Part shown: piece by piece, positions 15,120 through 30,684 of the stretch | Numbering within the stretch: the stretch's first letter is position 1 | Layout: each line of letters begins with the position of its first letter | Source: an uncultured Oscillospiraceae bacterium | GTDB lineage: Bacteria > Bacillota > Clostridia > Oscillospirales > Oscillospiraceae | Direction of reading: 5' to 3' | NCBI GenBank assembly: GCA_947625285.1 | Contig: CANQNS010000013.1 | Location: 1-60,565 of the forward strand | DNA: 60,565 bases | The notes under the pieces: generated by a model | Told to the model about the DNA's origin: nothing | The model's input: only the letters and a program-made list of their open reading frames with translations | The model's database searches: none | Translations under genes and position numbers: made by a program

Positions 15120-15782
15120 TCAAGCCTGTGCGTTCTGCTCCTCCGCCGGGGCCTGATCCTTTTCCAACTGGGCCATGACGGGCCGCAGCAGCAGGCTGCA
15201 AAGGTAGTTCAAGCCGGAAAAGCCGATGATGGAAAACAGCAGCGATATCCGCAAAAACGACGCCAGCGAGAAGTAGGCGAGGGCGGCGGGCAGCAGCGTG
15301 AGCGCCACCAGGCACACGGTCCGGGGCAGCTTCGCGCCGGCCAGTATGAGCGCGTTGCGGCAGTGGGCGATCAGGGTGTTGTCATAGCGGACCAGGAGCG
15401 GGAACATATAGCAGGCCACCGCCACCACCACCACCGCGAACATGACAAGCAGCGCCCGCAGCATCTGGGCCACCGTGCCGGCAAGATAGGTGTCGATCAG
15501 GATCATATCGAAGATCGTGCAGACGAAAAACGCCGCCAGGATCAGCCACAGGACGGTGGCCTGCCGGAAGTTGGACCGGAACGAGCGGAAGAACGCCTTG
15601 GCCGGCCCGGAGCCCGTCTCGCGCACGATGTCCTGGGTCACCTTCGTCATGCCGGCCAGGGAGGCGCCGAAGGTCACCACCGGCAGAGAACAGACCAGAA
15701 ACAGCACGTTGGCGATCATCAGATCGTACAGCTTGCCCAGGGCCCGCATGACGGGGTTGTCCAGATCGAATAGTCTTTTCAT
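15120..15782 (-). CDS. YesL family (DUF624) membrane protein
   Basis: 220 residues with about five to six hydrophobic segments (for example VLFLVCSLPVVTFG and MLRALLVMFAVVVVAVACYMF), matching YesL/DUF624 proteins. These are often encoded beside plant polysaccharide transporters and hydrolases, but their function is unknown. Here the gene lies between the arabinan operon and GH127, which fits. The ATG at 15782 has only a weak AAAGAGA ribosome site. A consensus promoter with a possible operator lies just upstream. Confidence 0.87.
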   Translation of the reverse strand: MKRLFDLDNPVMRALGKLYDLMIANVLFLVCSLPVVTFGASLAGMTKVTQDIVRETGSGPAKAFFRSFRSNFRQATVLWLILAAFFVCTIFDMILIDTYLAGTVAQMLRALLVMFAVVVVAVACYMFPLLVRYDNTLIAHCRNALILAGAKLPRTVCLVALTLLPAALAYFSLASFLRISLLFSIIGFSGLNYLCSLLLRPVMAQLEKDQAPAEEQNAQA

Positions 15783-15821
15783 GGCTCGTCTCTTTTCGTA
15801 AGATGGTTGCTCTTTCGCACG

Positions 15822-15837
15822 TTAAATGCGCTTACAT
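15822..15837 (-). promoter_or_regulatory. Possible LacI-family or cre-like operator at the yesL start point
   Basis: On the minus strand the stretch reads TGTAAGCGCATTTAA, close to the TGTAAGCGCTTACA pattern of LacI-family and CcpA sites, with one or two mismatches in the second half. It overlaps the predicted transcription start, where binding would repress. Confidence 0.4.
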
Positions 15838-15841
15838 CCGC

Positions 15842-15870
15842 ATTATATCCCCGTTTCAGACCGTTGTCAA
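15842..15870 (-). promoter_or_regulatory. Consensus promoter of the yesL-like gene
   Basis: Minus-strand TTGACA (15865-15870) and TATAAT (15842-15847) with a 17-bp spacer, a perfect sigma-A match. Such strength usually needs repression, consistent with the operator-like sequence next to it. Confidence 0.85.
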
Positions 15871-15879
15871 ACGGCCGGC

Positions 15880-17820: not shown

Positions 17821-17860
17821 GGCGTTGCCTCCCCGTTCGTTATTCTCGTTATTTATATCC

Positions 17861-17889
17861 AGCCTACAGGATTCCGGCGGCTTTGTCAA
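17861..17889 (-). promoter_or_regulatory. Probable promoter of the GH127 gene
   Basis: Minus-strand TTGACA (17884-17889) followed after 17 bp by TAGGCT (17861-17866). The -35 is perfect, the -10 weak, as at activated or regulated promoters. Confidence 0.5.
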
Positions 17890-17924
17890 TGAAAAATGCC
17901 GGAGGCCGTCCGGGGCAAATGGGC

Positions 17925-17952
17925 TTGCAATCTCGCATAAAAATGATATAGT
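17925..17952 (+). promoter_or_regulatory. Probable promoter of the large activase gene
   Basis: TTGCAA (17925-17930), 16-bp spacer, TATAGT (17947-17952). The transcript would have a leader of about 70 nt before the ATG at 18031. Confidence 0.6.
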
Positions 17953-18030
17953 ATGAATCGGCGGCGGTCGAACCCTGTCGAGGACCATCGCCGGGATAAC
18001 CATACAGCAGATCGGAGAGGGAAAGCATCC

Positions 18031-21000
18031 ATGCCCCAAGCAGCAAGACCATACGCACTCGGGATCGACATCGGTTCCACCACAGTCAAGATAGCCATTT
18101 TGCGCGCCTCGGACGGCAAGATGGTCTTTTCCGATTATGAGCGTCACCACGCCAACATCCAGCGGACCCTGTCCGGCCTTCTGCGGAAGGCGGAGGCCGC
18201 CCTGGGGGATGGGAACGTGACCCCCGTCATCACAGGCTCCGGAGGCCTGACTATGGCGGGGCTTTTGGGCGTGCCCTTCACCCAGGAGGTGGTGGCCGTT
18301 GCCACGGCCCTGCGGGACTACGCGCCCCAGACGGACGTTGCCATCGAGCTGGGCGGGGAGGACGCCAAGATCATCTACTTCACCGGCGGCATCGACCAGC
18401 GCATGAACGGTATCTGCGCCGGGGGCACCGGCTCCTTCATCGACCAGATGGCGGCCCTGCTGCAGACGGACGCGGCGGGGCTGAACCGCTACGCGGCGGG
18501 CTATAAGGCCATCTATCCCATCGCCGCCCGGTGCGGGGTCTTTGCCAAGAGCGATATCCAGCCCCTCATCAACGAGGGGGCCACACGGGAGGACCTGGCC
18601 GCGTCGGTGTTCCAGGCGGTGGTGAACCAGACCATCAGCGGCCTGGCCTGCGGCAAGCCCATCCGGGGCAACGTGGCCTTCCTGGGCGGACCGCTCCACT
18701 TCCTGCCGGAGCTGAAAAACGCCTTCGTGCGGACATTGCGCCTGACGCCGGAGCAGACCATCGCCCCGGAAAACGCCCACCTGTTCGCCGCCGCCGGCGC
18801 GGCCATGACCGCCGAGCGGGACGCGGCGGCCATATCCCTGGCCGCCCTGCGGGAGAAGCTGGAGGCGGAGCGGCAGATGCGCTTTGAGATCAAGCGGCTG
18901 GAGCCGCTTTTCAAAAGCCGGGAGGAGTATGACGAGTTCCGGGCCCGGCACGCGCTCCACCAGGTCCGCAAGGGCGACCTGGCGTCCTATTCCGGCAACT
19001 GCTTTTTGGGCATCGACGCCGGCTCCACCACCACCAAGGCGGCCCTGATCGGCCAGGACGGGAGCCTTCTTTACAGCTTTTATTCCAACAACAACGGCAG
19101 CCCTCTCGCCACGGCCATCCGGGCCGTCGGGGAGATCAAAGACCGCCTGCCGGACACGGCCCATATCGCCTATTCCTGCTCCACCGGCTACGGGGAGGCC
19201 CTCATCAAAGCGGCCTTGCTGCTGGACGAGGGCGAGGTGGAGACCATCGCCCACTACTACGCCGCCAGCTTTTTCGAGCCGGAGGTGGACTGCATCTTGG
19301 ATATCGGCGGCCAGGACATGAAGTGCATCCGCATCCGGGACAAGGCTGTGGACAGCGTGCAGTTGAACGAGGCCTGTTCCTCCGGCTGCGGCTCCTTTAT
19401 CGAGACCTTTGCCGTCTCTCTGGGCTATACCGCCCCGGAATTTGCCAGGGAGGCCCTGTTCGCCGAAAACCCCATCGACCTGGGCACCCGCTGCACGGTG
19501 TTCATGAACTCCAACGTGAAGCAGGCCCAGAAGGAGGGCGCGCCGGTGGCGGACATCTCGGCGGGCCTGGCCTATTCCGTCATCAAAAACGCGCTTTACA
19601 AGGTCATGAAGATCGCCGGGCCCGAGGACCTGGGCGCCCACACGGTGGTCCAGGGCGGGACCTTCTATAACGACGCGGTGCTGCGGAGCTTTGAGCGCAT
19701 CAGCGGCTGCCAGGCGGTCCGGCCGGACATCGCCGGCATCATGGGCGCCTTCGGGGCCGCCCTGGTGGCCCGGGAGCGGTGGCACGGTCAAAAGACCTCC
19801 ATGCTGGGCCTGGACGATATCCTGTCCCTGCGCTACGACACCCGCATGACCCGCTGCCAGGGCTGCAACAACCACTGTATGCTGACGGTGAACATCTTCG
19901 ACGGCGGGGCCCGGCGGTATATCTCCGGCAACCGGTGCGAAAAGGGCCTGGGGGCGGAGAAGAAGAGCGACGCGGATAAGGTGCCGAACCTGTTCGAGTA
20001 CAAGCTCAAGCGGGTGTTCGACTACGAGCCTCTGCCCCTGGAGAAAGCCCCAAGGGGCACGGTGGGCATCCCGCGGGTGCTCAATATGTATGAGAACTAC
20101 CCCTACTGGGCGACGTTTTTCCGGGAGCTGGGCTTCCGGGTGGTGCTGTCCCGGCCGTCTACCCGGAAGATATACGAGATGGGCATCGAGTCCATCCCCA
20201 GCGAGTCGGAGTGCTACCCGGCCAAGCTGGCCCACGGCCACGTCCAGTGGCTGCTGCGCCAGGGGATCAAGTTTATCTTCTACCCATGCCTGCCCTACGA
20301 GCGCAACGAAACGCCCGGGGCCGCCAACCACTATAACTGCCCCATCGTCACCTCCTATTCGGAGAATCTGAAAAACAACGTGGAGGAACTGGCGGACCCC
20401 TCCGTTCGGTTCATGAATCCCTTTTTGCCCTTCTATGACGAGACGCCCCTTTCCCACCAGCTGGTGAAGGAATTCGGCGCGGCCTTCGGCATCCCGCCGG
20501 CGGAGGTGGGGGCCGCCTGCCACAAGGCGTGGCGGGAGCTGGACCGGGCCCGGCACGACATCGAGCGCAAGGGGGAGGAGGTCCTGCGGTACATGGAGCG
20601 GACCGGCCGGCACGGCATCGTGCTGGCGGGCCGGCCCTACCATGTGGACCCGGAGATCAACCACGGCATCCCGGACCTGATCGCCTCCTACGGCCTGTGC
20701 GTGCTGACGGAGGACTCCGTGTCCCACCTGGCGGAGCCGGAGCGGCCGCTCATGGCGGTGGACCAGTGGATGTACCACTCCCGGCTGTACCGGGCGGCGG
20801 AATATGTGAAGGGCCGGGACGATCTGGACCTGGTGCAGCTCAACTCCTTCGGCTGCGGCCTGGACGCCGTCACCACCGACCAGGTCAGCGATATCCTGAC
20901 CCGGTCCGGGAAGCTCTATACGGTGCTGAAGATCGACGAGATGAACAACCTGGGCGCGGCCCGCATCCGCATCCGCTCGCTGATCTCCGCGCTGCGGCTG

Positions 21001-22302
21001 CGGAGCGAGCGGCACGCCATGCGCAGAGTCGTGTCCTCCGGCTACCATCGGACCGAGTATACCAAGGCCATGAACGAGGCGGGCTATACCATTTTGTGCC
21101 CCCAGCTCTCGCCCATCCACTTCAAGCTGCTGCGGGCGGCGGTGGGCTCTTTCGGCTACAACATCGAGCTGCTGGAAAGCCCCCGGCAGACCTCCGTGGA
21201 CGTGGGGCTCCGATACGTCAACAACGACGCCTGCTACCCCTCCATGCTGGTGGTGGGCCAGATCATGGAGGCGTTGCAGTCCGGCCGGTACGACACGGAA
21301 AAAACGGCGGTGTTCATCACCCAGACCGGCGGCGGCTGCCGGGCCACCAACTACATAGGCTTCATCCGCCGGGCCTTGGAAAAGGCCGGCATGGGCCATG
21401 TGCCCGTCATATCCGTCAGCGTCCAGGGGCTGGAGACCAACGAGGGCTTCCACTTCACCGCCACCATGCTGCTGAAGGCCATGCAGGCGTTGGTGTACGG
21501 GGACCTGTTCATGCGGGTGCTGTATCGGATGCGGCCTTACGAGGTGACGGCCGGCTCCGCCGACGCGCTGCACGAAAAGTGGGAGCGGCAGTGTATCGAG
21601 GCGTTGGAGGGGCCCTTCTCCATGGCACGGTTCAACAAAAACGTGGAGGACATCGTCCGGCAGTTCGACGCGCTGCCCATCCATGAGGACATGGTAAAGC
21701 CCCGGGTGGGCATCGTGGGGGAGATCCTGGTAAAATTCGACCCGGAGGCCAACAACCACCTGGTGGAGCTTTTGGAGAGCGAGGGCGCGGAGGCGGTGGT
21801 GCCGGATCTGGCGGACTTCCTCATGTACTGCTTCTATAACGCCAACTTCAAGGCGGAGCACCTGGGGGGCAAGGCGTCCACGGCAAGGCTCTCCAACCTG
21901 GGCATCGCCGCGGGGGAGCGGTTCCGCAGCCACGCCCGCCGGGCCCTGGAGCGCAGCCGCCACTTCACCGGCCTGTCCCGGATCGGCCAGCTTGCCGACT
22001 ACGCCAAGGACTATGTGTCCCTGGGCAACCAGACCGGGGAGGGGTGGTTCCTGACCGGGGAGATGCTGGAGCTGATCCACAGCGGCACCACCAACATCAT
22101 CTGCACCCAGCCCTTCGCCTGTCTGCCCAACCATATCGTGGGCAAGGGCGTCATCAAGGAGCTGCGGGCCAGCTACCCCCAGGCCAACATCATCGCCGTG
22201 GACTATGACCCCGGCGCCAGCGAGGTGAACCAGCTCAACCGCATCAAGCTCATGCTGTCCGCCGCCCGGGAAAAGCTCCGGGACGACCGGCAGGTCAGTT
22301 GA
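18031..22302 (+). CDS. Large acyl-CoA dehydratase activase (two BadF/BcrA ATPase domains plus DUF2229 and dehydratase-like region)
   Basis: 1423 residues. Two ASKHA ATPase domains of the HgdC/BcrA activator type lie in tandem: GIDIGSTTVK near residue 11 and GIDAGSTTTK near 326. Each has cluster-ligand Cys of this family (CAGGTGSF and AARCGVF in the first; CSSGCGSF and GTRCTVF in the second). A Cys-rich linker CQGCNNHC follows near 609, then a DUF2229-type region from about 677 and a C-terminal part resembling 2-hydroxyacyl-CoA dehydratase subunits (NDACYPSM, TGGGCRATNY). Activators of this type inject a high-energy electron at the cost of ATP. Start by GGAGAGGGAAAG 6 nt upstream. The protein is common in Clostridia but its substrate is unknown, and no separate dehydratase is nearby. 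Confidence 0.87.
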   Translation: MPQAARPYALGIDIGSTTVKIAILRASDGKMVFSDYERHHANIQRTLSGLLRKAEAALGDGNVTPVITGSGGLTMAGLLGVPFTQEVVAVATALRDYAPQTDVAIELGGEDAKIIYFTGGIDQRMNGICAGGTGSFIDQMAALLQTDAAGLNRYAAGYKAIYPIAARCGVFAKSDIQPLINEGATREDLAASVFQAVVNQTISGLACGKPIRGNVAFLGGPLHFLPELKNAFVRTLRLTPEQTIAPENAHLFAAAGAAMTAERDAAAISLAALREKLEAERQMRFEIKRLEPLFKSREEYDEFRARHALHQVRKGDLASYSGNCFLGIDAGSTTTKAALIGQDGSLLYSFYSNNNGSPLATAIRAVGEIKDRLPDTAHIAYSCSTGYGEALIKAALLLDEGEVETIAHYYAASFFEPEVDCILDIGGQDMKCIRIRDKAVDSVQLNEACSSGCGSFIETFAVSLGYTAPEFAREALFAENPIDLGTRCTVFMNSNVKQAQKEGAPVADISAGLAYSVIKNALYKVMKIAGPEDLGAHTVVQGGTFYNDAVLRSFERISGCQAVRPDIAGIMGAFGAALVARERWHGQKTSMLGLDDILSLRYDTRMTRCQGCNNHCMLTVNIFDGGARRYISGNRCEKGLGAEKKSDADKVPNLFEYKLKRVFDYEPLPLEKAPRGTVGIPRVLNMYENYPYWATFFRELGFRVVLSRPSTRKIYEMGIESIPSESECYPAKLAHGHVQWLLRQGIKFIFYPCLPYERNETPGAANHYNCPIVTSYSENLKNNVEELADPSVRFMNPFLPFYDETPLSHQLVKEFGAAFGIPPAEVGAACHKAWRELDRARHDIERKGEEVLRYMERTGRHGIVLAGRPYHVDPEINHGIPDLIASYGLCVLTEDSVSHLAEPERPLMAVDQWMYHSRLYRAAEYVKGRDDLDLVQLNSFGCGLDAVTTDQVSDILTRSGKLYTVLKIDEMNNLGAARIRIRSLISALRLRSERHAMRRVVSSGYHRTEYTKAMNEAGYTILCPQLSPIHFKLLRAAVGSFGYNIELLESPRQTSVDVGLRYVNNDACYPSMLVVGQIMEALQSGRYDTEKTAVFITQTGGGCRATNYIGFIRRALEKAGMGHVPVISVSVQGLETNEGFHFTATMLLKAMQALVYGDLFMRVLYRMRPYEVTAGSADALHEKWERQCIEALEGPFSMARFNKNVEDIVRQFDALPIHEDMVKPRVGIVGEILVKFDPEANNHLVELLESEGAEAVVPDLADFLMYCFYNANFKAEHLGGKASTARLSNLGIAAGERFRSHARRALERSRHFTGLSRIGQLADYAKDYVSLGNQTGEGWFLTGEMLELIHSGTTNIICTQPFACLPNHIVGKGVIKELRASYPQANIIAVDYDPGASEVNQLNRIKLMLSAAREKLRDDRQVS

Positions 22303-22321
22303 CATAATTTCCAAATGCGCA

Positions 22322-22358
22322 AGAAAGAGCGGCGTCCATGAGGACGCCGTTCTTTTTA
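22322..22358. terminator. Bidirectional terminator between activase and HxlR genes
   Basis: An 8-bp stem (22330-22337 with 22342-22349), 4-nt loop, TTCTTTTT on the plus side and AAGAAAG on the other. It overlaps the hxlR stop codon. Confidence 0.85.
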
Positions 22359-22703
22359 TGTTTCCGCCTCTTGCGCCAGCTTGGCGGCGCGGTATTCCTC
22401 GCCCCAGGCCCGCATGGCGTCCAGGATGGGCTGGAGGCTCCGGCCCAGGTCGGTCAGCGAATACTCCACCCGTGGGGGCACTTCGGGAAACACGGTGCGG
22501 GTGACGAGCCCGTCCGCCTCCATGGACCGCAGGCTGTCGGTGAGGACCTTCTGGCTCACGCCGTCCAGGTCCCGATGCAGCTCGTTGAACCGCCAGGGGC
22601 GGACCATGAGGTTTCGTATGATGAGCAGCTTCCACTTGTTGCCTATGAGCTGCACGGTGGTGGCTACGGGGCATTCGGGCAGCAGTTCGGCCTTTGTTTT
22701 CAT
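22356..22703 (-). CDS. HxlR family transcriptional regulator
   Basis: 115 residues with the compact winged helix of HxlR/YodB regulators: CPVATTVQLIGNKWKLLIIRNL is the usual first helix with an N-terminal Cys (C12), then FNELHRDLDGVSQKVLTDSLR as recognition helix and RVEYSLTDLG as the wing. Many relatives sense aldehydes or quinones through that Cys. GGAGG lies 6 nt before the ATG. It is transcribed away from the Cys-repeat peptide gene, with repeats in the shared region, so it is a good candidate regulator of that cluster and of itself. Confidence 0.9.
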   Translation of the reverse strand: MKTKAELLPECPVATTVQLIGNKWKLLIIRNLMVRPWRFNELHRDLDGVSQKVLTDSLRSMEADGLVTRTVFPEVPPRVEYSLTDLGRSLQPILDAMRAWGEEYRAAKLAQEAET

Positions 22704-22779
22704 ATCGCGCCTCCATACAGTCAGAATCGAATGTTACACTTGGATGATACTGCGCCGCCGGGCCCTATGTCAATCAGTT

Positions 22780-22814
22780 ACAAAAAGGTGCGTACCCCAC
22801 CTTTTTGTGCGTAC
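22780..22814. promoter_or_regulatory. Candidate HxlR operator: inverted and direct repeats
   Basis: An 11-bp inverted repeat ACAAAAAGGTG / CACCTTTTTGT (22780-22790 and 22798-22808) is interleaved with an 8-bp direct repeat GTGCGTAC (22788-22795 and 22807-22814). It adjoins the -35 of the peptide promoter, so a bound regulator would block it. Confidence 0.6.
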
Positions 22815-22842
22815 TTGTGGAGGACGAAAATGTCCCTATAAT
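22815..22842 (+). promoter_or_regulatory. Promoter of the ACGX peptide cluster
   Basis: TTGTGG (22815-22820), 16-bp spacer, perfect TATAAT (22837-22842). The start would be near 22849, giving a leader of about 46 nt with AAGGAGGAC before the ATG at 22895. Confidence 0.75.
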
Positions 22843-22894
22843 GGAAGCCACAGGAGGCGGACAGCTTTCTGAATCTGACAAGGAGGACAGCACG

Positions 22895-23080
22895 ATGGCA
22901 CTTTCTGATCTGGCCGGATGGACTGAGGACAAGGTCCCTTCCGCCTGCGGTACGGCCTGTGGCGCGGCTGACAAACCGGAAGAGAAGCCCGCGGCCTGCG
23001 GTACGGCGTGTGGCGCGGCTGACAAGCCCGCGGAGAAGCCCGCGGCCTGCGGTACTGCCTGCGGCGCGGGGGACAAGTAA
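22895..23080 (+). CDS. Cys-repeat RiPP precursor peptide, ACGX-repeat type
   Basis: 61 residues: a short leader MALSDLAGWTEDKVPS, then three copies of a 17-residue unit that each contain ACGTACGA (or G) followed by DK and a P/E/K-rich spacer. The six Cys are at 18, 22, 35, 39, 52 and 56, every pair spaced four residues, with strict 17-residue periodicity. AAGGAGGAC gives a very strong ribosome site. A radical SAM/SPASM enzyme follows after a hairpin. Peptides built from A-C-G-X units next to such an enzyme are what I recall being catalogued as the ACGX system; the modification has not been reported to my knowledge. It lacks a signal peptide. An alternative reading, a metal-binding small protein, fits the Cys pattern but not the neighbours as well. 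Confidence 0.85.
   Translation: MALSDLAGWTEDKVPSACGTACGAADKPEEKPAACGTACGAADKPAEKPAACGTACGAGDK
22943..23077 (+). repeat. Three in-frame 51-bp repeats encoding the ACGT-ACGA units
   Basis: Units begin at 22943, 22994 and 23045 (the last is cut short after 33 bp by the stop). The DNA is well conserved with mostly silent changes, so the peptide sequence is under selection rather than the repeat being fresh slippage. Confidence 0.9.
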
Positions 23081-23085
23081 TACCC

Positions 23086-23114
23086 GGCCTCCGGCGGACG
23101 ATCCGCCGGGGGCC
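23086..23114 (+). terminator. Intercistronic stem-loop between precursor and maturase genes
   Basis: A 13-bp stem (23086-23098 with 23102-23114, one G-T pair) with a CGA loop, and only a weak T-tract (CCCTTTTGG). It probably terminates part of the transcripts or protects the short mRNA, so the peptide is made in excess over its enzyme, a common RiPP arrangement. Confidence 0.7.
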
Positions 23115-23135
23115 AAACCCTTTTGGAGCGACGAT

Positions 23136-24167
23136 ATGAGCGAGTATTTTTCCTTCCAGTGGCACATCACAGACCAGTGCGACCAGCGGTGCAAGCACTG
23201 TTATATCTTCTCCGGCGGCGAGCATCAGCATCTGGACTCCATGACTTGGGCGCAGATGGAGGACACGTTTTATAACTGCCTGGACTTCTGCCAGGTCTAC
23301 GATAGGCTGCCTTACTTTTACATCACCGGCGGGGACCCCATCCTGCACCCGGACTTCTGGCGGCTGCTGGAGCTGCTGCATGAGCATGACGCGCCCTTTA
23401 CCATCCTGGGCAATCCCTTCCACCTGAACGACCAGGTGTGTCGGGAGCTGAAGGGGCTGGGCTGCGAGAAGTACCAGCTATCCCTGGACGGCCTTCGCCA
23501 GACCCACGACTGGTTCCGAAAGCCCGGCTCCTATGACTGCACACTGGAGAAGATCGGCTGCATCAAGCGGGCGGGCATCCGCGCCGTCATCATGACTACC
23601 GTGTCCAAGACCAACCGCATGGAGGTGCCGGGCATCATCGACGCGGCGGTGGCGGCCGGTGCTGACGTGTTCGCCTTCTCCCGCTATGTCCCCAGCGGCG
23701 GGGACCTGGACGGGTCCATGACGGCCCGGGAGTACCGGGAGCTGCTGGCGGTGTGCGACAGGAAATTCAAGGAATATGAGGCCCAGGGCTGCCGGACCTG
23801 GTTCAACAAAAAGGACCATCTCTGGACCCTTTACGAGTACGAGACAGGCGCGTTCACCATCCCGGAAAACGCCAAAGCGGGCGTGATCTACGGCGGCTGC
23901 AACTGCGGCAACTGCCACATCACCATCCTGCCCACCGGGGACGTGTATGCCTGCCGCCGGGTAGCTGACAGCCGAGTGGGGAACGTGCTGGAGGACCGGC
24001 TGGCGGACGTGTGGGTGTGCCAGATGGAGCGGTACCGGGATTACGGAAAGTTTGAAAAGTGCGCCAGGTGCGAACTTATGCCCTGGTGCCGGGGCTGCCC
24101 CGCCGTGGCGAAGGGGACCAGCGGCGATTTTTATTCCCCTGACCCCCAATGCTGGAAGGAAGTGTGA
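23136..24167 (+). CDS. Radical SAM/SPASM peptide maturase of the ACGX system
   Basis: 343 residues. The radical SAM cluster motif CDQRCKHC has C15, C19 and C22. ITGGDPIL (63-70) is the glycine-rich SAM-binding strand. The C-terminal SPASM region carries the auxiliary-cluster Cys: C255, C257, C260, C273, then C309, C312, C318, C321 and C339, as CARCELMPWCRGC plus a final Cys. SPASM enzymes with two auxiliary clusters mostly modify small Cys-rich peptides, forming thioether or carbon-carbon links. GGAG 7 nt before the ATG at 23136 fixes the start; the frame is open further 5' but that part overlaps the precursor gene. No separate RiPP recognition domain is evident. The likely substrate is the preceding repeat peptide. 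Confidence 0.9.
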   Translation: MSEYFSFQWHITDQCDQRCKHCYIFSGGEHQHLDSMTWAQMEDTFYNCLDFCQVYDRLPYFYITGGDPILHPDFWRLLELLHEHDAPFTILGNPFHLNDQVCRELKGLGCEKYQLSLDGLRQTHDWFRKPGSYDCTLEKIGCIKRAGIRAVIMTTVSKTNRMEVPGIIDAAVAAGADVFAFSRYVPSGGDLDGSMTAREYRELLAVCDRKFKEYEAQGCRTWFNKKDHLWTLYEYETGAFTIPENAKAGVIYGGCNCGNCHITILPTGDVYACRRVADSRVGNVLEDRLADVWVCQMERYRDYGKFEKCARCELMPWCRGCPAVAKGTSGDFYSPDPQCWKEV

Positions 24168-24171
24168 TATA

Positions 24172-24756
24172 ATGGAACTGCTGGAATTGATGAAGCACCG
24201 GCGGGCCATCCGCCGGTTCGACGCCCGGCAGATAGACGAGAACGCTCTGGAGCAGATACTGGAGGCGGGGCTGTACGCCCCCAGCGCGGGGGGACGGCAG
24301 GGGGTGCTGTTCGCGGTGTGCCAGGACCGGGCGGTAAATGAGCGGCTGGGGAAGATCAAGCGGGCCAACTCCCATCCCAGCATGGCTACGGCCACGCGCT
24401 ATGTGTCCAAAGAACAGCCCAGCATCGCGGACGATCCCGCTCTTGTCAACGCCTTTTATGACGCGCCCACGGTCGTCACTTTTTTCGCGCCGAAGAACTT
24501 TCTGTTTGCGGCGGAGGACTGCGCCTGCGCGGCGGAGAACATGATGCTCATGGCGGACGCGCTGGGGGTGGGTTCCTGTTACATCGGCCAGGGCTGGACG
24601 GCCTTCGCGGACAGCTACGGCCAGGAGATATTGAAAAAGTGGGTCGTCCGCCCGGACTATTATGCGGTGATGCAGCTCCTGCTGGGCTATCCCAAAGAGG
24701 GTGACGCCCACCCAACGCCCAAGCCCCGAAAAGATGGGCGCGTACTGCGGTTTTGA
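24172..24756 (+). CDS. Nitroreductase family FMN protein
   Basis: 194 residues. The N-terminal MKHRRAIRRFD supplies the phosphate-binding Arg pair and APSAGGRQ the flavin-contacting turn; LGVGSCYIGQG and LLLGYPKE are the conserved C-terminal blocks. Family members reduce or oxidise organic substrates with NAD(P)H and FMN; some distant relatives oxidise azoline rings in peptides. The ATG lies 4 bp after the radical SAM stop and uses GGAAGGA inside that gene, so the two are one translational unit. A role in peptide maturation is plausible but inferred only from this coupling. Two Cys in DCACAAEN are unusual. Confidence 0.88.
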   Translation: MELLELMKHRRAIRRFDARQIDENALEQILEAGLYAPSAGGRQGVLFAVCQDRAVNERLGKIKRANSHPSMATATRYVSKEQPSIADDPALVNAFYDAPTVVTFFAPKNFLFAAEDCACAAENMMLMADALGVGSCYIGQGWTAFADSYGQEILKKWVVRPDYYAVMQLLLGYPKEGDAHPTPKPRKDGRVLRF

Positions 24757-24777
24757 ATGGAAGCGGAGCCCTGAGCC

Positions 24778-24945
24778 TTATTCGTGCGAGTCCTTATCGG
24801 CTTTGCTGGACGGCAGTACACGAACGACTGGCTCCGGGTCGCTGATATACATTTCTTCACAATCCCGCTGAGCCGCTATCAGGATATTGATGGCCTCCTC
24901 AGCGGCACGAAACATTTTTAAGTACATTTCCTTATAGTCCGGCAT
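24778..24945 (-). CDS. Small conserved protein paired with an XRE regulator
   Basis: 55 residues starting MPDYKEMYLKMFRAAEEAIN and largely alpha-helical, with an acidic ending. Small proteins with this MPDYKEMYLKMF start occur widely in Clostridia beside XRE repressors, often in mobile or defence regions; the function is unknown. I use the ATG at 24945, preceded by GGAGGTGAG, rather than an upstream start that would lie inside the promoter. It is divergent from the XRE gene and shares its operator. Confidence 0.75.
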   Translation of the reverse strand: MPDYKEMYLKMFRAAEEAINILIAAQRDCEEMYISDPEPVVRVLPSSKADKDSHE

Positions 24946-24964
24946 ATTCTCACCTCCAACGCAA

Positions 24965-24993
24965 ATGATAGGACATATTGTCCAATCCGTCAA
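24965..24993 (-). promoter_or_regulatory. Promoter of the small gene with a palindromic operator in its spacer
   Basis: Minus-strand TTGACG (24988-24993), 17-bp spacer, TATCAT (24965-24970). Inside the spacer is GGACA-TAT-TGTCC (24971-24983), a 13-bp palindrome. A dimer there would cover both promoter elements; the divergent XRE protein is the obvious candidate. Confidence 0.7.
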
Positions 24994-25035
24994 TATGACC
25001 CGACCTGCTGTTGTATATTGGCGGTGGTGATGAGT

Positions 25036-25248
25036 ATGCGTCTACGGATACGCGACTTGCGAGAGGATGCGGATCTGACACAACGCCAGGTGGCGGATGA
25101 ATTGATGTGCGACCAGTCCCTGTACTCCAAGTACGAGCGCGGCGAGCGGCCCCTCCCCTTGGAGATGGCGGTAAAACTGGCGCTCTTCTACAAGACGAGC
25201 CTGGATTACTTGGTCGGCCTTACCGACGATCCCGCACCGAGAAGCTAA
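25036..25248 (+). CDS. XRE family (Cro/C1-type) regulator
   Basis: 70 residues forming one helix-turn-helix domain: RDLREDADLTQRQVADEL, SLYSKYERGERPLPLEMAVKLALFY and the closing TSLDYLVGLTD typical of SinR/Xre-like proteins. No effector domain. Start uncertain: ATG 25036 follows a GGTGGTGAT stretch; ATG 25030 is equally in frame. It probably represses the divergent small gene through the palindrome at 24971. A terminator follows at once. Confidence 0.85.
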   Translation: MRLRIRDLREDADLTQRQVADELMCDQSLYSKYERGERPLPLEMAVKLALFYKTSLDYLVGLTDDPAPRS

Positions 25249-25284
25249 AAAGTGGCAGGAAATGGACTTCCTGCCGCTTTTTGC
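25247..25284 (+). terminator. Terminator of the XRE gene
   Basis: A 15-bp stem (25247-25261 with 25268-25282, one G-T pair) ending in TTTTT; the A-run on the left pairs with the T-tract. Confidence 0.85.
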
Positions 25285-25319
25285 TGCTTCACCATTTTTT
25301 CTAAAGAGGTATATAAACG

Positions 25320-25934
25320 ATGGACGCACAGACTTGTCTCAAAAAATTGGAATATGTAGGCGTGCTGGCCTTCGCCACGGTGGACGCATCCGGCGCGCCG
25401 CAGATACGCAATATCTCCGCTATCCACTATGAGCCGGACCGGATCATATTTTTCACCGCCAAGGGAAAGGATTTTTGTCGGGAACTGCTTGCGGACGGGC
25501 GGGTGCAGGTGTTAGGATATACCCGGTATAAGGAGATGATCCGGCTGGCCGGCAGAGCGGTCCCCGTACCGGACGGTGAGCAGAAGAGATGGATCGACAC
25601 GATATTTGCCGAACAGCCCTATCTTTCCAACGTCTATCCCGGCGACACAAGGAAGCTGGCGGGCATCGTCTTTGAGATACGGGACGGCCAGATCGAGTAT
25701 TTCAACTTGGGCGTCAACCCCATCTTCCGGGAGAGCTATGCCATCGGGGCGGGAAACGTCACGAAAAAGGGCTATGTCATTTCCGATGCGTGCGTGGGCT
25801 GCGGCAGGTGCCTGAAAAACTGCCCACAGCGGTGCATCGAACCGGGGACGCCCTATCAGATACGGCAAACCAACTGCCTGCACTGTGGCAGCTGCTATGC
25901 GGTATGCCCGGTCCATGCGGTGAAACGGAGATGA
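25320..25934 (+). CDS. PNPOx-like flavin protein fused to a 2[4Fe-4S] ferredoxin
   Basis: 204 residues. The first 130 or so form the split-barrel of the pyridoxamine-phosphate-oxidase superfamily (LAFATVDASGAPQIRN and IIFFTAKGKDF), which binds FMN or related cofactors. The last 60 carry two cluster motifs, CVGCGRCLKNCPQRC and CLHCGSCYAVCP. Such fusions suggest an internal electron path from ferredoxin clusters to flavin; the substrate is unknown. AAAGAGG lies 10 nt before the ATG. The sirtuin gene starts right after the stop, so they form an operon. Confidence 0.85.
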   Translation: MDAQTCLKKLEYVGVLAFATVDASGAPQIRNISAIHYEPDRIIFFTAKGKDFCRELLADGRVQVLGYTRYKEMIRLAGRAVPVPDGEQKRWIDTIFAEQPYLSNVYPGDTRKLAGIVFEIRDGQIEYFNLGVNPIFRESYAIGAGNVTKKGYVISDACVGCGRCLKNCPQRCIEPGTPYQIRQTNCLHCGSCYAVCPVHAVKRR

Positions 25935-25936
25935 CT

Positions 25937-26788
25937 ATGGAGAGCTTTGGGGAGAATATCAAGAAGCTGCGGGAGGCCCTGGAGGGGGCGGAGGCCGTGG
26001 TGGTAGGGGCCGGGTCCGGCCTGTCCACGGCGGCGGGCTTCGTCTACGACGGGGAGCGGTTTTACGAGCATTTTGCCGACTTCGCCCAAAAATACGGCTT
26101 CCGGGATATGTACTCCGGGGGCTTTTACCCCTTTGAGAGCCCGGAGGAATTTTGGGCCTATTGGAGCCGGTACATCTTCATCAACCGCTACATGGACCCG
26201 CCGAAGCCGGTGTATGAGAAGGTCCTGGAGCTGGTGCGGGGCAAGGACTACTTCATCCTCACCACCAACGTGGACCACTGCTTCCAGAAGGCCGGCGCGG
26301 ACAAGGACCGGCTTTTCTACACCCAGGGAGATTACGGGCTTTTCCAGTGCTCGGAGCCCTGCCACGACGCCACCTACGACAACGAGGCCGTGATCCGGGC
26401 CATGGTGGAGCGGCAGCGGGATATGCGGGCGCCCACGGAGCTTCTGCCGAAGTGCCCCCGGTGCGGGAAGCCCATGACCGTGAACCTGCGGGCGGACGAC
26501 AAATTCGTGGAGGACGCCGGCTGGCACGCCGCGGCGGAGCGATACGGCGCGTTTTTGCGGGCGCATCAGGGGCGGGCGGTCCTCTTTTGGGAGCTGGGGG
26601 TGGGATTCAATACCCCCGGCATCATCAAATACCCTTTCTGGCGCATGACGGCGGAAAACCCCAGGGCGGTCTATGCGTGTTTGAACCGCAGCAAGGCCTT
26701 CGCGCCGGAGCCGATCGCCCGCCGGGCGATCTGTATCAACGGGGACGTGGGAGAGATCGTGACGCGCCTTTGCGCCGGCGGGCGATAG
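25937..26788 (+). CDS. SirTM-type (class M) sirtuin, probable protein ADP-ribosyltransferase
   Basis: 283 residues with the sirtuin NAD fold: GAGSGLSTAAGF near residue 24, TTNVDHCF replacing the usual TQNID, and a zinc site from CSEPC and CPRCGK. At the position of the catalytic His (normally LHG) the sequence is YTQGDYGLFQC, so Gln replaces His. That Gln and the flanking QGxYGLxQCS pattern are those I recall for SirTM enzymes of Streptococcus and Staphylococcus, which ADP-ribosylate lipoylated GcvH-L rather than deacetylate. Those are encoded with a macrodomain hydrolase, GcvH-L and LplA2, none of which is in this window. Start at ATG 25937 by GGAG 6 nt upstream; ATG 25931 overlaps the previous stop and is an alternative. 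Confidence 0.85.
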   Translation: MESFGENIKKLREALEGAEAVVVGAGSGLSTAAGFVYDGERFYEHFADFAQKYGFRDMYSGGFYPFESPEEFWAYWSRYIFINRYMDPPKPVYEKVLELVRGKDYFILTTNVDHCFQKAGADKDRLFYTQGDYGLFQCSEPCHDATYDNEAVIRAMVERQRDMRAPTELLPKCPRCGKPMTVNLRADDKFVEDAGWHAAAERYGAFLRAHQGRAVLFWELGVGFNTPGIIKYPFWRMTAENPRAVYACLNRSKAFAPEPIARRAICINGDVGEIVTRLCAGGR

Positions 26789-26808
26789 ACGGCATATCCA
26801 CGCCGCGT

Positions 26809-26851
26809 AATAAGGGACCGGGACTTCGGATGAAGTTCCGGCCTCTTATTC
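26809..26851 (+). terminator. Terminator after the sirtuin gene
   Basis: An imperfect 19-bp hairpin (26809-26827 with 26832-26850), AATAAG outer arms pairing with CTTATT; T-rich on both sides, so probably shared with the convergent GNAT gene. Confidence 0.7.
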
Positions 26852-26888
26852 TGTATTTTGTCCGCTCAGCCCGGCAAATGGGAAGTTG

Positions 26889-27401
26889 TCAATCGATTCC
26901 AAAGGCAGGATCATATTTGACCATGCCTTTAACTTGAGGCGCATCGCTTTGTAATTTGAACGCCATGAAGTATTCGTCCTGCACTTCAAAAGGCGCTTCT
27001 ATTCCGTATAAGCTCGCCGGAAGATAACCAGCACGCGGATAATATGCTGGGGAACCCAATACCACCGAGTAGTCATACCCCAACTGTTTTGCAATACGGT
27101 GTCCCTCTCGGATAAGTGACAGCCCGATCCCTCTCCGCTGATATGCCGGAAGAACAGAAAGGGGCGCAAGAGCAAGTTCGATGTGTTCTCCTATGGTGAT
27201 TTTGGTAAAGAGGATATGCCCCACGATCTTGCCATCTTCCACTGCCACAAGGGAAAGTTCTGGAATAAAGGATGAAGTGGCCCTCAACAGGGTCACAAGC
27301 TCCTGCTCGTTTCCATCGCTATGCTCAGCGCTAGAAAATGCTTCTGTTACGACCTGAAAGACTGAATTATGATCGCCTGCTTGCTCTTGCCTTATTTCCA
27401 T
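26889..27401 (-). CDS. GNAT family N-acetyltransferase
   Basis: 170 residues. The acetyl-CoA binding segment is APLSVLPAYQRRGIGLSLI with the Q/RxxGxG/A signature, followed by VVLGSPAYYPRAGY, a motif common in YhbS-like acetyltransferases. The acceptor is unknown. GGTGG lies about 10 nt before the ATG. The gene is visibly richer in A and T, with codons such as AAA, TTT, GAT and ATA, than everything around it, which suggests recent acquisition. Confidence 0.9.
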   Translation of the reverse strand: MEIRQEQAGDHNSVFQVVTEAFSSAEHSDGNEQELVTLLRATSSFIPELSLVAVEDGKIVGHILFTKITIGEHIELALAPLSVLPAYQRRGIGLSLIREGHRIAKQLGYDYSVVLGSPAYYPRAGYLPASLYGIEAPFEVQDEYFMAFKLQSDAPQVKGMVKYDPAFGID

Positions 27402-27571
27402 ACATGCGCACCACCTTTTTAGAAAAAACCTTATACAGTCAAATCCCGATCTGCCGCGCTATAGGGAAGGCGGCGCCGCCCGCGGTGATAGTATAGCACG
27501 ACAAAGCCGTGGCTGGCAAGGCGCGGCATAGCGCGGGGCGGGCCCTGTGAGGCGGCGTCAAAAAATTTTAA

Positions 27572-27619
27572 AAGGTACCTTGACAAATGGTGTGGGCCGT
27601 GGTATAGTCAAGGTACCTC
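27572..27619 (+). promoter_or_regulatory. MarR gene promoter flanked by two AAGGTACCT operators
   Basis: TTGACA (27580-27585) and TATAGT (27603-27608), 17 bp apart. AAGGTACCTT (27572-27581) overlaps the -35 and AAGGTACCTC (27610-27619) lies just after the -10, 38 bp centre to centre; with flanks they form AGGTACCTTGA...TCAAGGTACCT. This is a layout for tight autorepression. The remaining stretch 27402-27571 holds nothing I can name. Confidence 0.8.
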
Positions 27620-27643
27620 AATAATTTTGAAAGGAGAAAGGCC

Positions 27644-28486
27644 ATGTTTGACGATAGAGTTTTTGACCGTCCCATACCCGCCCCGGAGGAGGGCGCGCCC
27701 CAGGAGCGGCCTGTTCCGCCTCCGCCCCCACCGCACGAGGAGCCCCACGGGCATCCCGTGCCGCCGCCCCCGCCGCCTCCGCACCACGGTCCCCACGGGC
27801 CCGGCGGGCCTCACCACCCCGCGCCGCCGCCTCCGCCGCCTCTCGGCCACCACGCGCCGCCCCCGCCGCCCCCGCACCATGGGCCTCACGGGCCCCACAT
27901 CGACCCGGAGCGGTATGCGGAGCTGGACACGGACGGGAAGCTGATGGCCCTGATCCTGGCGTTGGGCCACGCGGGCCGGTTCCACTTTGACGAGCGGGGC
28001 GGCCAGCGGCGGGCCCTGGGCCTGCTGCCGGCGGAGGGGCCCATGACCCAGCGGGAGCTTACGGAGCGGCTGGGCATCCAGCCCGGCTCCGCCAGCGAGC
28101 TGGTGGGCAAGCTGGAGCGGGCGGGCCTCATCGCCCGGACACCCAGCGAGACAGACCGGCGCACCGCCGACATCCGGCTCACCGAGGCGGGCCTGGCCCG
28201 GCGGCAGGAGCAGGAACAGGAGCGGTCCGGCCGGGAGAGCCTGTTCGCCGTGCTGTCGGAGGAGGAGAAGCAGACCCTGCTCGCGCTGCTGGAAAAGCTC
28301 CACCAGGCCTGGCTCGCCATGCCCAAGCCGGAGCCGCCCAGACCCGGACCCGGCCCCAGGCCCGAACCCGGTCCCAGGTCGGAGCCCAGCCCCGCGCCGG
28401 AGCCGGAGCCGCCCAGACCGGGACCCGGCCCCAAGCCTGAACCGCCCGAGCCGGGACCCGGTCCGGCGGAGATGGAGGACATCTGA
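27644..28486 (+). CDS. MarR family regulator with a His/Pro-rich N-terminal arm and Pro-rich C-tail
   Basis: 280 residues, about twice a normal MarR. The central part (about residues 95-220) is an ordinary winged helix: GPMTQRELTERLGIQPGSASELVGKLERAGLI followed by the wing TPSETDRRTADIRLTEAG. It is preceded by about 85 residues almost wholly of Pro, His and Gly (runs such as PPPPPPHHGPHGPH) and followed by about 55 residues of P/G/E/R. The His-rich arm looks like a Ni, Zn or Cu binding tail. The promoter has paired operators that this protein probably binds. No partner gene follows; a terminator comes 10 bp after the stop, so it is alone. What it regulates elsewhere cannot be read here. Confidence 0.85.
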   Translation: MFDDRVFDRPIPAPEEGAPQERPVPPPPPPHEEPHGHPVPPPPPPPHHGPHGPGGPHHPAPPPPPPLGHHAPPPPPPHHGPHGPHIDPERYAELDTDGKLMALILALGHAGRFHFDERGGQRRALGLLPAEGPMTQRELTERLGIQPGSASELVGKLERAGLIARTPSETDRRTADIRLTEAGLARRQEQEQERSGRESLFAVLSEEEKQTLLALLEKLHQAWLAMPKPEPPRPGPGPRPEPGPRSEPSPAPEPEPPRPGPGPKPEPPEPGPGPAEMEDI

Positions 28487-28495
28487 AACGCGAAA

Positions 28496-28525
28496 GCCCC
28501 GCTGCCAACGGCAGCGGGGCCTTTT
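28496..28525 (+). terminator. Terminator of the MarR gene
   Basis: A perfect 11-bp stem (28496-28506 with 28510-28520) with AAC loop and CTTTTG tail. Confidence 0.88.
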
Positions 28526-28587
28526 GCTATGTTGTCGGTCGATCCGCGAAGCCCGGTCAGGGCGAGCCGCGCGGCATTCCCGCGCGT

Positions 28588-28624
28588 GAAGTCAAAAGCC
28601 GCTGTATGACAGGCTTTTGACTTC
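28588..28624. repeat. 13-bp inverted repeat in the intergenic region
   Basis: GAAGTCAAAAGCC (28588-28600) and its exact complement (28612-28624) flank an 11-nt loop. It lies downstream of the convergent MarR and transhydrogenase genes. Neither side has a T-tract, so it may be an mRNA 3' end stabiliser or a weak terminator. Confidence 0.6.
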
Positions 28625-28656
28625 CTGCCGGCGGGATTCACTTCCGCCGAGCAGTT

Positions 28657-30684
28657 TCAATCTAATATCTTTAACGCGCCAGTGGGGCAGGCCTGGGCGC
28701 ACTTTTTGCAACTGGCGCAGACCTTGATGCGGTCGCTGTCCCGGAACTCCGGCTTGACTACGGTGCCGAAGCCGCGGCCCACCAGGCCCAGCAGGCCCTC
28801 GCCGGCCACCTCGTCGCAGACCCGGACGCACAGGCCGCACAAAATGCACTTGCCCTGGTCCCGCTCGATGACTACCAGCTTCCGCTCCAGGTCCTTGTGC
28901 CGCTTCTCCCCGGCGAACCGCTCCGGGTGGATCTCGTAGCGGTTGGCGTGCTGGATGAGAGAGCACTCGCCATAGTCGTGGCAGCCGCACTCCAGGCACC
29001 GGCTGGCCTCTTTCATGGCCTCCTCGGCGGTGAAGCCGTCGTTGACGGGCTCGAAGTCGTGCTTGCGCTCCTGGGCGGGGCGGTTGTTCACATGGACACG
29101 GGGCTTCTTCTCCCGGTCGGCCAGGTCCTGGGCGGTGACGGTGCGCTTGCTGACGAAGGGGGGCTTATAGGGGACGATGGCTCCCCGCAGGTAGCTGTCC
29201 ACCACGTCGGCGGCCTTGCTGGCCTCACCGATGGCGGCGATGGCGATGCCCGCGCCCTTATTGGTGGCGTCGCCCACGGCGAACACGCCCTCCAGATCGG
29301 TGCGGAAGGTGGTCTCGTCGGCGGCGATGATGCCCCGCTTGTTCAGCTCCACGTCGAAGCCGGCGGGGTCCACCTTCTGGCCGATGGCGGCGATGACGCT
29401 GTCCACTGCCAGGGTCTCGAACTTACCCTCCACGGGCACCGGGGACCGGCGGCCGGAGGCGTCCGGCTCGCCCAGCTCCATGACCTGCAGCTTCACGGCC
29501 GCGGCCCGGCCGTTGCTTCCGATGATCTCGGCGGGGTTGGTGAGGAACTTGAACTGCACGCCCTCTTCCTCGGCTTCCTCGATCTCGTCCAGGTTGGCGG
29601 GCATCTCGTTCTTGGTCCGGCGGTAGATGACGTACACGTTCTCCGCCCCCAGGCGCACGGCGGTGCGGCAGGCGTCCATGGCGGTGTTGCCGCCGCCCAC
29701 GATAGCCACGCTCTTGCCGATGGGCAGGGGGTCGTGCAAAGCGACGGAGCGCAGAAAGTCGATGCCGCCGTAGACCCCCGGCAGATCCTCGCCGGGGCAG
29801 CGCAGGGGCGTGCTGCTCCAGGCGCCGATGGCGATCACCACCGCGTCATATTTGGCCCGGTAGTCGGCAAAGGAGATATCCCGGCCGATCTTCACGTTGT
29901 TTTCCATCTTCACGCCGGTCTCAGCGATCTCGGCCACCTCCGCGTCCACCACGTCCTTGGGAAGCCGGTACTGGGGGATGCCGTAGCGGAGCATGCCGCC
30001 CATCTGGGGCATGGCGTCGGTCAGGGTCACGTCATGGCCGTGCAGGGCCAGGTAATAGGCCGCGGTCAGGCCGCCGGGGCCGCCGCCGATGACGCCGACG
30101 GTCTTTCCGGTGGCGGGCTCCTTTTCCGGCTTCCAGCGGTCGGGCGCGTGGAGCTGGTCCATGCTCATGAACCGCTTTATGAGGGCGATGGAGATGGGCT
30201 CCTCCACCAGACCCCGCCGGCAGTCCTTCTCACAGGGGTGGGGGCACACGTGGCCGATGCTGGCGGGCAGAGGCAGCCGCTCCTTGACGATGCGCACGGC
30301 CTCCTTGGTGTTGCCAAGAGCCACCTGCTTCACATAGGCCTGGCAGTTGGTGCCGGCGGGGCAGGCCAGCCGGCAGGGACCCATGCAGTCCCCGTCGTGG
30401 TCGCTCATGAGAAGCTCCAGAGCGATCTTCCGGGCCTGGACGGCCCGCTCCCCCTCGGTGTTGATCACCATGCCGTCGGCGGCCAGGGTGGAGCAGGAGC
30501 GCAGCAGCTTGGGCGAGCCCTCCGCCTCCACCACGCACAGGCCGCAGGCGCCGTAGTGGGCCACGGTGTCGTTATGGCACAGGGTGGGGATGTCGATGCC
30601 GTTTTCCCGGGCGATATCCAAAATGGTCTGGCCGGACTTGCCGGCGCAGAGCTTGCCGTTGATAGTCAGTTTGATGTCACTCAT
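28657..30684 (-). CDS. NfnB/GltD-like subunit with flanking iron-sulfur domains (StnC-like)
   Basis: 675 residues in three parts. The first 90 or so form a [2Fe-2S] domain (C-H-N-D...YGACGLC...RSC) like the start of NuoG/HydA. The middle is a GltD/NfnB-type oxidoreductase with an N-terminal 4Fe-4S part (CMGPCRLACPAGTNC), FAD site VIGGGPGGLTAAYYLA and NAD(P) site VAIVGGGNTAMDACRTA. The C-terminus has CILCGLCVRVC and CASCKKCAQACPTGAL, again HydA/NuoG-like. A NfnB core between hydrogenase-type cluster domains is the design I recall for StnC of the Sporomusa-type Nfn complex, an electron-bifurcating transhydrogenase linking NADPH, NAD and ferredoxin. GAGGGGG lies 7 nt before the ATG; 13 bp separate it from the NuoF-like gene. 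Confidence 0.87.
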   Translation of the reverse strand: MSDIKLTINGKLCAGKSGQTILDIARENGIDIPTLCHNDTVAHYGACGLCVVEAEGSPKLLRSCSTLAADGMVINTEGERAVQARKIALELLMSDHDGDCMGPCRLACPAGTNCQAYVKQVALGNTKEAVRIVKERLPLPASIGHVCPHPCEKDCRRGLVEEPISIALIKRFMSMDQLHAPDRWKPEKEPATGKTVGVIGGGPGGLTAAYYLALHGHDVTLTDAMPQMGGMLRYGIPQYRLPKDVVDAEVAEIAETGVKMENNVKIGRDISFADYRAKYDAVVIAIGAWSSTPLRCPGEDLPGVYGGIDFLRSVALHDPLPIGKSVAIVGGGNTAMDACRTAVRLGAENVYVIYRRTKNEMPANLDEIEEAEEEGVQFKFLTNPAEIIGSNGRAAAVKLQVMELGEPDASGRRSPVPVEGKFETLAVDSVIAAIGQKVDPAGFDVELNKRGIIAADETTFRTDLEGVFAVGDATNKGAGIAIAAIGEASKAADVVDSYLRGAIVPYKPPFVSKRTVTAQDLADREKKPRVHVNNRPAQERKHDFEPVNDGFTAEEAMKEASRCLECGCHDYGECSLIQHANRYEIHPERFAGEKRHKDLERKLVVIERDQGKCILCGLCVRVCDEVAGEGLLGLVGRGFGTVVKPEFRDSDRIKVCASCKKCAQACPTGALKILD

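Follow-up and report, generated by a model that had tools for sequence, protein, structure and literature searches.

What does a radical-modified repeat peptide do in a bacterial cell, and with which genes does it work? The question is raised by a short gene cluster in a 60,565-nucleotide stretch of DNA (the window; contig CANQNS010000013.1 of assembly GCA_947625285.1, from an uncultured Oscillospiraceae bacterium). An earlier note on this DNA had described a putative cluster for a ribosomally synthesised and post-translationally modified peptide (RiPP), in which a 61-residue ACGX-repeat peptide with three 17-residue modules and six Cys is followed by a radical SAM/SPASM enzyme, i.e., the maturase, and 4 nt later by a nitroreductase, with a divergent HxlR regulator. 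These features and their coordinates are correct, and model matches agree with them (TIGR04341, TIGR04340, PF00881 and PF01638), but the operon appears to extend past the nitroreductase, to position 26788, and to include a PNPOx-type FMN-binding domain fused to ferredoxin motifs (PNPOx-ferredoxin) and a class M sirtuin (SirTM), both of which had been missed, as had the zinc macrodomain of the relatives. We consider it highly probable that the operon link between the ACGX module and the SirTM genes is real. From gene content and motifs we propose, at somewhat less than even confidence, that this is a redox or electrophile-stress operon in which the matured peptide takes the place of the lipoyl-carrying protein GcvH-L.

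The peptide and the maturase lie 55 nt apart and both exceed the curated cut-offs of the ACGX models, with 67.5 bits for TIGR04341 (cut-off 28) and 594 bits for TIGR04340 (cut-off 400) respectively, which makes them members of the ACGX system, as the earlier note had rightly said. TIGR04340 is far ahead of every other NCBIfam model listed for the maturase, the next best being that of the thio(seleno)oxazole maturase SbtM (TIGR04082), with 159 bits and under its cut-off of 350. The six Cys of the peptide go with three ACGTACGA modules, repeated with a period of 51 nt or 17 residues. Recurrence was followed in two overlapping sets. The first holds the best 80 of 332 confirmed relatives, and as such leans to close kin; many are contigs of metagenome-assembled genomes (MAGs), whose taxon names may be wrong. 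The second holds 31 ACGX genomes, i.e., genomes with a maturase match over the TIGR04340 cut-off, and is the union of a class sample, two families (f21 and f15) and a phylum sample, which overlap one another; the window's genome (G000) is counted in. Four genomes with sub-cut-off maturase matches (G112, G180, G348 and G760) were not scored as ACGX, and none of them has a SirTM match. A script found the peptide upstream of the maturase in 69 of the 70 relatives with at least 1 kb of upstream sequence and in 30 of the 31 genomes, a recurrence which excludes its occurrence by chance; it misses L002 and G395, where the peptide is visible by eye, so that peptide and maturase stand together in 31/31 genomes. 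The earlier note would have given up its claim had this linkage been lost in relatives; it is kept. Some genomes hold two ACGX loci, e.g., one MAG with L002 and L007, and G265, in which one of the loci L138 and L139 is followed by macrodomain and SirTM and the other by a DUF1848 gene.

The residues around the Cys suggest what the maturase does. Among the 617 Cys of 99 distinct peptides (out of 107; a few of the 99 with doubtful starts), 228 have a further Cys at +4, while the other 389 have Asp (340), Glu (11) or neither (38) at this position, and 340 of the 438 Asp sit at +4 of a Cys, counts which are biased to the CX3D motif, as the peptide finder demanded at least one ACG-x-x-D and excluded G395 and L002. 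The window peptide has three CX3D motifs. All 111 maturases show the SPASM cysteine pattern and 110 show CX3CX2C; the exception has Arg for the first Cys, in a locus (L253 of G536) that otherwise looks complete and includes a SirTM, pointing to a sequencing error or a dead enzyme. PapB links the Cys sulfur to the Asp beta carbon in CX3D and accepts other spacings too (PMC9413430). The ACGX system shares with PapA/PapB, which make the ranthipeptide freyrasin, the repeated CX3D and a radical SAM RiPP maturase, although an additional Cys is frequent in ACGX units (CX3CX3D). Judged by the motif of the peptide, the SPASM maturase would cross-link the peptide, most likely by thioethers from Cys to the beta carbon of Asp in C-G-x-x-D.

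The SirTM genes accompany this pair in most of the genomes. SirTM matches were taken at E<=1e-40 (1e-30 in the phylum sample), and a SirTM was called linked if it lay on the same contig and strand as the maturase, within 4 kb. In the class sample the maturase is over cut-off in 16 of 391 genomes (the window's included) and SirTM is found in 66, i.e., in 16/16 ACGX genomes against 50/375 others (Fisher p 8e-14), linked in 13 of the 16. Taking 8 kb in 2 Mb, a rough binomial estimate puts the chance of 13/16 linked at 4e-29, a value too strong owing to related genomes; contrasts within families and the SirTM tree are a fairer test. Family f21 (ACGX in 11/38 genomes, SirTM in 15/38) has SirTM linked in 11/11 ACGX genomes and present in 4 of the 27 others. 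The contrast is weak in family f15 (ACGX 5/70, SirTM 26/70), where SirTM occurs in 4/5 ACGX genomes and 22/65 others (p 0.06); it is linked in 4/5, and in the fifth (G440) the contig ends at a linked macrodomain and may have cut the SirTM off. The phylum sample has ACGX in 9/398 genomes and SirTM in 19/398, with both in 7/9 ACGX genomes and linkage in 5/9. Taken over the union, SirTM is present in 28 and linked in 23 of the 31 ACGX genomes. Among the 53 relatives with at least 5 kb of downstream flank, PNPOx-ferredoxin follows on the same strand in 44 and SirTM in 36, and 32 have the macrodomain no more than 5 kb downstream from the maturase; the macrodomain precedes SirTM in many relatives, and in L012 and L019 the macrodomain/SirTM pair is found upstream instead. 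In the window the start of SirTM overlaps the stop of the PNPOx-ferredoxin gene (ATGA).

The window sirtuin is class M by motif, since TTNVD and QGDYG give it an Asn and a Gln replacing the deacylase His. The QG pattern is present in 67 of 71 ACGX-linked SirTMs and HG in none; of the other four, three are cut before the motif and that of G395 reads QGNYG. Searched against the Protein Data Bank at E<=1e-8, a profile of seven SirTMs matches solely 5a3a and its kin (SIR2 family protein; 284 bits) and 8rsn (103 bits), a macrodomain-SirTM fusion; we take 5a3a to be SpySirTM. The Gln for His exchange is a class M feature (PMC4518038, PMC11490716), and from these motifs the window SirTM is predicted to have ADP-ribosyltransferase-type activity. 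On the side of the hydrolase, the L065 macrodomain scores 348.5 bits for the protein-ADP-ribose hydrolase model NF003163 (cut-off 272), a profile of six macrodomains matches solved protein-ADP-ribose hydrolases, best 8rsi, and the zinc-loop motif is present in 60 of 63 macrodomains. Three further observations concern the surroundings of these genes: a DUF1848 protein recurs beside the macrodomain/SirTM pair, with or without ACGX (L013, L022, L142, L160, L161, L065, L049 and others); in several loci a DUF5131 protein with a weak resemblance to radical SAM mobile pair protein A lies 3' of SirTM; and SirTM occurs in tandem copies in L183 (G085) and G295:C12.

The closest known arrangement is the extended SirTM operon of Staphylococcaceae and Lactobacillales, in which LplA2 lipoylates GcvH-L, SirTM ADP-ribosylates GcvH-L and the macrodomain reverses this; two oxidoreductases (OYE and LLM) are included, and the authors suggested that the lipoyl group may scavenge oxidants (PMC4518038, PMC11490716). 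The present operon shares with it the QG class M sirtuin, the zinc macrodomain (in relatives) and redox enzymes alongside, whereas here the ACGX peptide and the radical SAM enzyme stand for GcvH-L and LplA2, a nitroreductase or MDR protein and PNPOx-ferredoxin stand for OYE and LLM, and the HxlR gene is divergent. GcvH-L and LplA2 were not found among the proteins of the window operon (22356-26788), which is as such not a lipoyl-type extended operon. Because of this parallel, i.e., carrier, modifier and two oxidoreductases, the peptide is the first candidate target of the linked SirTMs.

Regulation points towards stress. The divergent HxlR gene is present in 70/70 relatives with enough flank, and its CPV Cys in 97 of 101 HxlR proteins by pattern; of the other four, three show it by eye and one (G498) looks like a different HxlR. 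In alignment this Cys matches that of HypR (4a5m), and 96 of 107 loci share a TGCGTACT site 5' of the peptide gene. HypR, YodB and CatR detect HOCl, quinones and diamide by means of N-terminal Cys residues, and the nitroreductase YodC and the flavoenzyme HypO are among the targets of Bacillus subtilis DUF24 regulators (PMC6943732). The ACGX operon thus has in common with HypR-HypO and YodB-YodC a DUF24 regulator, an N-terminal sensing Cys and nitroreductase or flavoenzyme genes. To our knowledge, those regulons include no RiPP and no ADP-ribosylation genes. By analogy, and given the CPV Cys, its alignment with HypR, the known DUF24 targets and the shared upstream site, the HxlR protein would be a thiol-switch regulator imposing stress control, and a stress role of the operon is reasonably probable.

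Put together, the HxlR thiol switch would control expression of the repeat peptide, and the cross-linked peptide with its maturase would replace lipoyl-GcvH-L and LplA2 of the known operon. The NAD(P)H oxidoreductase and PNPOx-ferredoxin may serve to keep either the matured peptide or an electrophile encountered by it in the reduced state, while SirTM would add ADP-ribose and the zinc macrodomain remove it, most simply on the peptide. That the peptide is an ADP-ribosylated or redox carrier we suggest only tentatively. Its most specific form is rather doubtful, i.e., that the matured peptide is a multi-repeat thioether/thiol carrier which reduces or traps electrophiles and is switched by SirTM/Zn-macrodomain ADP-ribosylation of its own Asp or Cys.

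The linkage has a history which has to be weighed here. We compared the ACGX loci with 51 SirTM loci without ACGX, several of which end at contig edges; these came from 39 of the 50 ACGX-free class genomes that carry SirTM, the second SirTM of G104, five f15 genomes and six phylum genomes, with L262 excluded. Within 4 kb, 47 have a macrodomain, 19 a divergent HxlR of the same kind and 15 PNPOx-ferredoxin; an intact ACGX-type nitroreductase or MDR was found in 0/51, the sole trace being a 36-residue fragment in L155. The contents of the two kinds of locus indicate two modules, peptide-maturase-oxidoreductase in front of HxlR-PNPOx-macrodomain-SirTM. The modules can part, as L155 (G197) demonstrates: at ~7400-7650 the peptide start and repeats run into the nitroreductase fragment and the maturase is absent, and PNPOx-ferredoxin, macrodomain and SirTM are retained. 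On a tree of 120 SirTMs thinned to 112, a quick tree with long branches (G395 included) and unsure single placements, the linked state changes 18 times against a mean of 37 with shuffled labels, and nine of the changes are forced by starred branches. SirTM linkage is clustered, yet it was gained or lost many times. A single frozen origin, also considered, was rejected in view of these changes. In G395 the linked SirTM is a remote one (41% identity) and the gene order is flipped.

The main rival follows from this picture, namely that the peptide-maturase-oxidoreductase module moved, more than once, into an HxlR-controlled SirTM stress operon for its promoter, so that the two modules share a regulon and have separate targets. 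It is in keeping with the HxlR and PNPOx-ferredoxin genes at SirTM loci without ACGX, with ACGX loci whose SirTM is unlinked or missing, and with the L155 remnant, from which the maturase and all but a fragment of the oxidoreductase are gone while the other module remains. We hold it to be credible, at a probability clearly below even. Promoter sharing does not explain, however, why SirTM is present in 28/31 ACGX genomes, five times unlinked, and the gene set mirrors the GcvH-L operon, in which the carrier is the substrate.

The oxidoreductase bears on a second alternative. An intact NAD(P)H oxidoreductase, either nitroreductase or MDR, lies within 3 kb downstream of the maturase in 30/31 genomes, 29 times at no more than 200 nt; the same holds for 66 of the 77 relatives that offer 1.2 kb or more of downstream sequence, with 58 of these proteins within 200 nt; in the window it starts 4 nt past the maturase stop. 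Given this recurrence and 0/51 in SirTM loci without ACGX, it belongs with the peptide module. The 66 intact proteins comprise 36 nitroreductases of lineage B, 13 of lineage A and 17 MDR proteins, the last resembling PIG3 quinone oxidoreductases. In L023, L029, L039, L040, L042, L080 and L135 the maturase is present and the nitroreductase behind it is only a fragment. Either of two diverged nitroreductase lineages or an MDR protein can occupy this slot, which is more in keeping with an NAD(P)H reductase that can be exchanged than with a single, specific flavin tailoring reaction. The flavoenzyme coupling claimed by the earlier note is thus recurrent, but the tailoring step that it proposed does not sit well with a shared slot. 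Its overall view, in which radical chemistry followed by flavoenzyme tailoring yields an intracellular metal or redox peptide and SirTM would be incidental, draws on the same close association of oxidoreductase and maturase, and on the absence of the former (one fragment aside) from other SirTM loci. We regard it as improbable, since unrelated families in one slot are hard to square with one tailoring reaction and the SirTM association is left unexplained.

An ordinary secreted RiPP, i.e., a bacteriocin or signal using housekeeping export, would suit the ranthipeptide-like CX3D motifs and is very unlikely: no transporter or peptidase family was matched among the window proteins scanned at 15120-30684, where not every open reading frame (ORF) was scanned, and the genes that recur nearby are for redox enzymes and ADP-ribosylation. 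Within the reach of that scan, the intracellular action suggested by the earlier note is plausible. Least probable is an anti-phage defence locus of radical SAM enzyme and NAD-using sirtuin, prompted by the maturase, which weakly matches a viperin model (46.7 bits), as PADLOC at E<=0.01 gave no model for peptide, nitroreductase, SirTM, macrodomain or MDR and weak matches for HxlR and PNPOx-ferredoxin, and TIGR04340 beats the other models listed for the maturase.

Several findings weigh against a stress operon in which the peptide replaces lipoyl-GcvH-L. The 38 of 389 Cys with neither Asp nor Glu at +4 mean that CX3D is not strict, the repeats of G395 read CGAAAPE/D and are without CX3D, and the window maturase is not PapB by model (57 bits, cut-off 340). 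The oxidoreductase is dispensable, being a fragment or weak match in 7/77 relatives, a fragment in G316, and missing from 4/77 relatives. ACGX occurs without a SirTM match in G732 (95% complete) and G498 (99% complete), and with an unlinked SirTM in G316, G296, G332, G696 and G786; one of the matches in G696 (C91) and the sirtuin read in G786 (C14) are distant, with 32% and 30% identity to the seed, though QG is present. SirTM is far commoner than ACGX and occurs without it. Lastly, the window operon is without a Zn-macrodomain, the copy of this genome lying on another contig (L194, G000:C21:19846-20616).

The ACGX pair was already catalogued; its models name just peptide and maturase, to which the present analysis adds HxlR, oxidoreductase, PNPOx-ferredoxin, Zn-macrodomain and SirTM. 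A full-text search, with most subscription journals and bioRxiv outside its coverage and therefore proving little, returned no publication on the ACGX system under its names, and no paper joining a radical SAM enzyme with SirTM, with macrodomain and HxlR, or with macrodomain, sirtuin and nitroreductase. If the proposed reading is right, the ACGX peptide would be the substrate so far missing for SirTM systems that have no lipoyl carrier, and we know of no earlier RiPP that is a target of reversible ADP-ribosylation. The operon singles out one peptide as a testable target, and the cluster itself encodes the maturase, the transferase and, in relatives, also the hydrolase; the ACGX family would gain a plausible setting in intracellular redox stress rather than antibiosis.

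Table 1. Features of the ACGX-SirTM operon and its borders in the window.
Feature	Position	Strand	Basis
HxlR/DUF24 regulator, divergent, N-terminal CPV Cys	22356-22703	-	PF01638, 113 bits
Putative operator GTTACAAAAAGGTGCGTAC ... GTGCGTACTTG	22777-22817	+	Shared upstream motif
-10 box TATAAT	22837-22842	+	By eye; absent from promoter scan output
ACGX-repeat precursor peptide, 61 aa	22895-23080	+	TIGR04341, 67.5 bits; 51-nt direct repeat
Radical SAM/SPASM maturase, 343 aa	23136-24167	+	TIGR04340, 594 bits; CX3CX2C and SPASM cysteines
Nitroreductase-fold protein, 194 aa, lineage nitA	24172-24756	+	PF00881, 87 bits; nearest solved structure 3ek3
Apparent insertion, ORF of 71 aa	24778-24993	-	ORF table
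Apparent insertion, small XRE-like ORF	25018-25248	+	ORF table; XRE label by eye
PNPOx-type FMN-binding domain fused to 4Fe-4S (ferredoxin) motifs	25320-25934	+	PF01243, 45.8 bits; PF00037
Class M sirtuin (SirTM), 285 aa	25931-26788	+	QGDYG and TTNVD motifs
Terminator-like hairpin 3' of SirTM	26818-26841	+	10-bp stem, T-rich tail; consensus match only

An ORF similar to the 71-aa one of the apparent insertion (Table 1) occurs in L010 and L051, at loci where the oxidoreductase was not found. On the other side of the operon, a 1449-aa acyl-CoA dehydratase activase-type protein (17953-22302) adjoins the HxlR gene and is convergent with it. Beyond the SirTM lies a MarR-type protein (27644-28486) with a Pro/His-rich N-terminal stretch and a Pro-rich tail.

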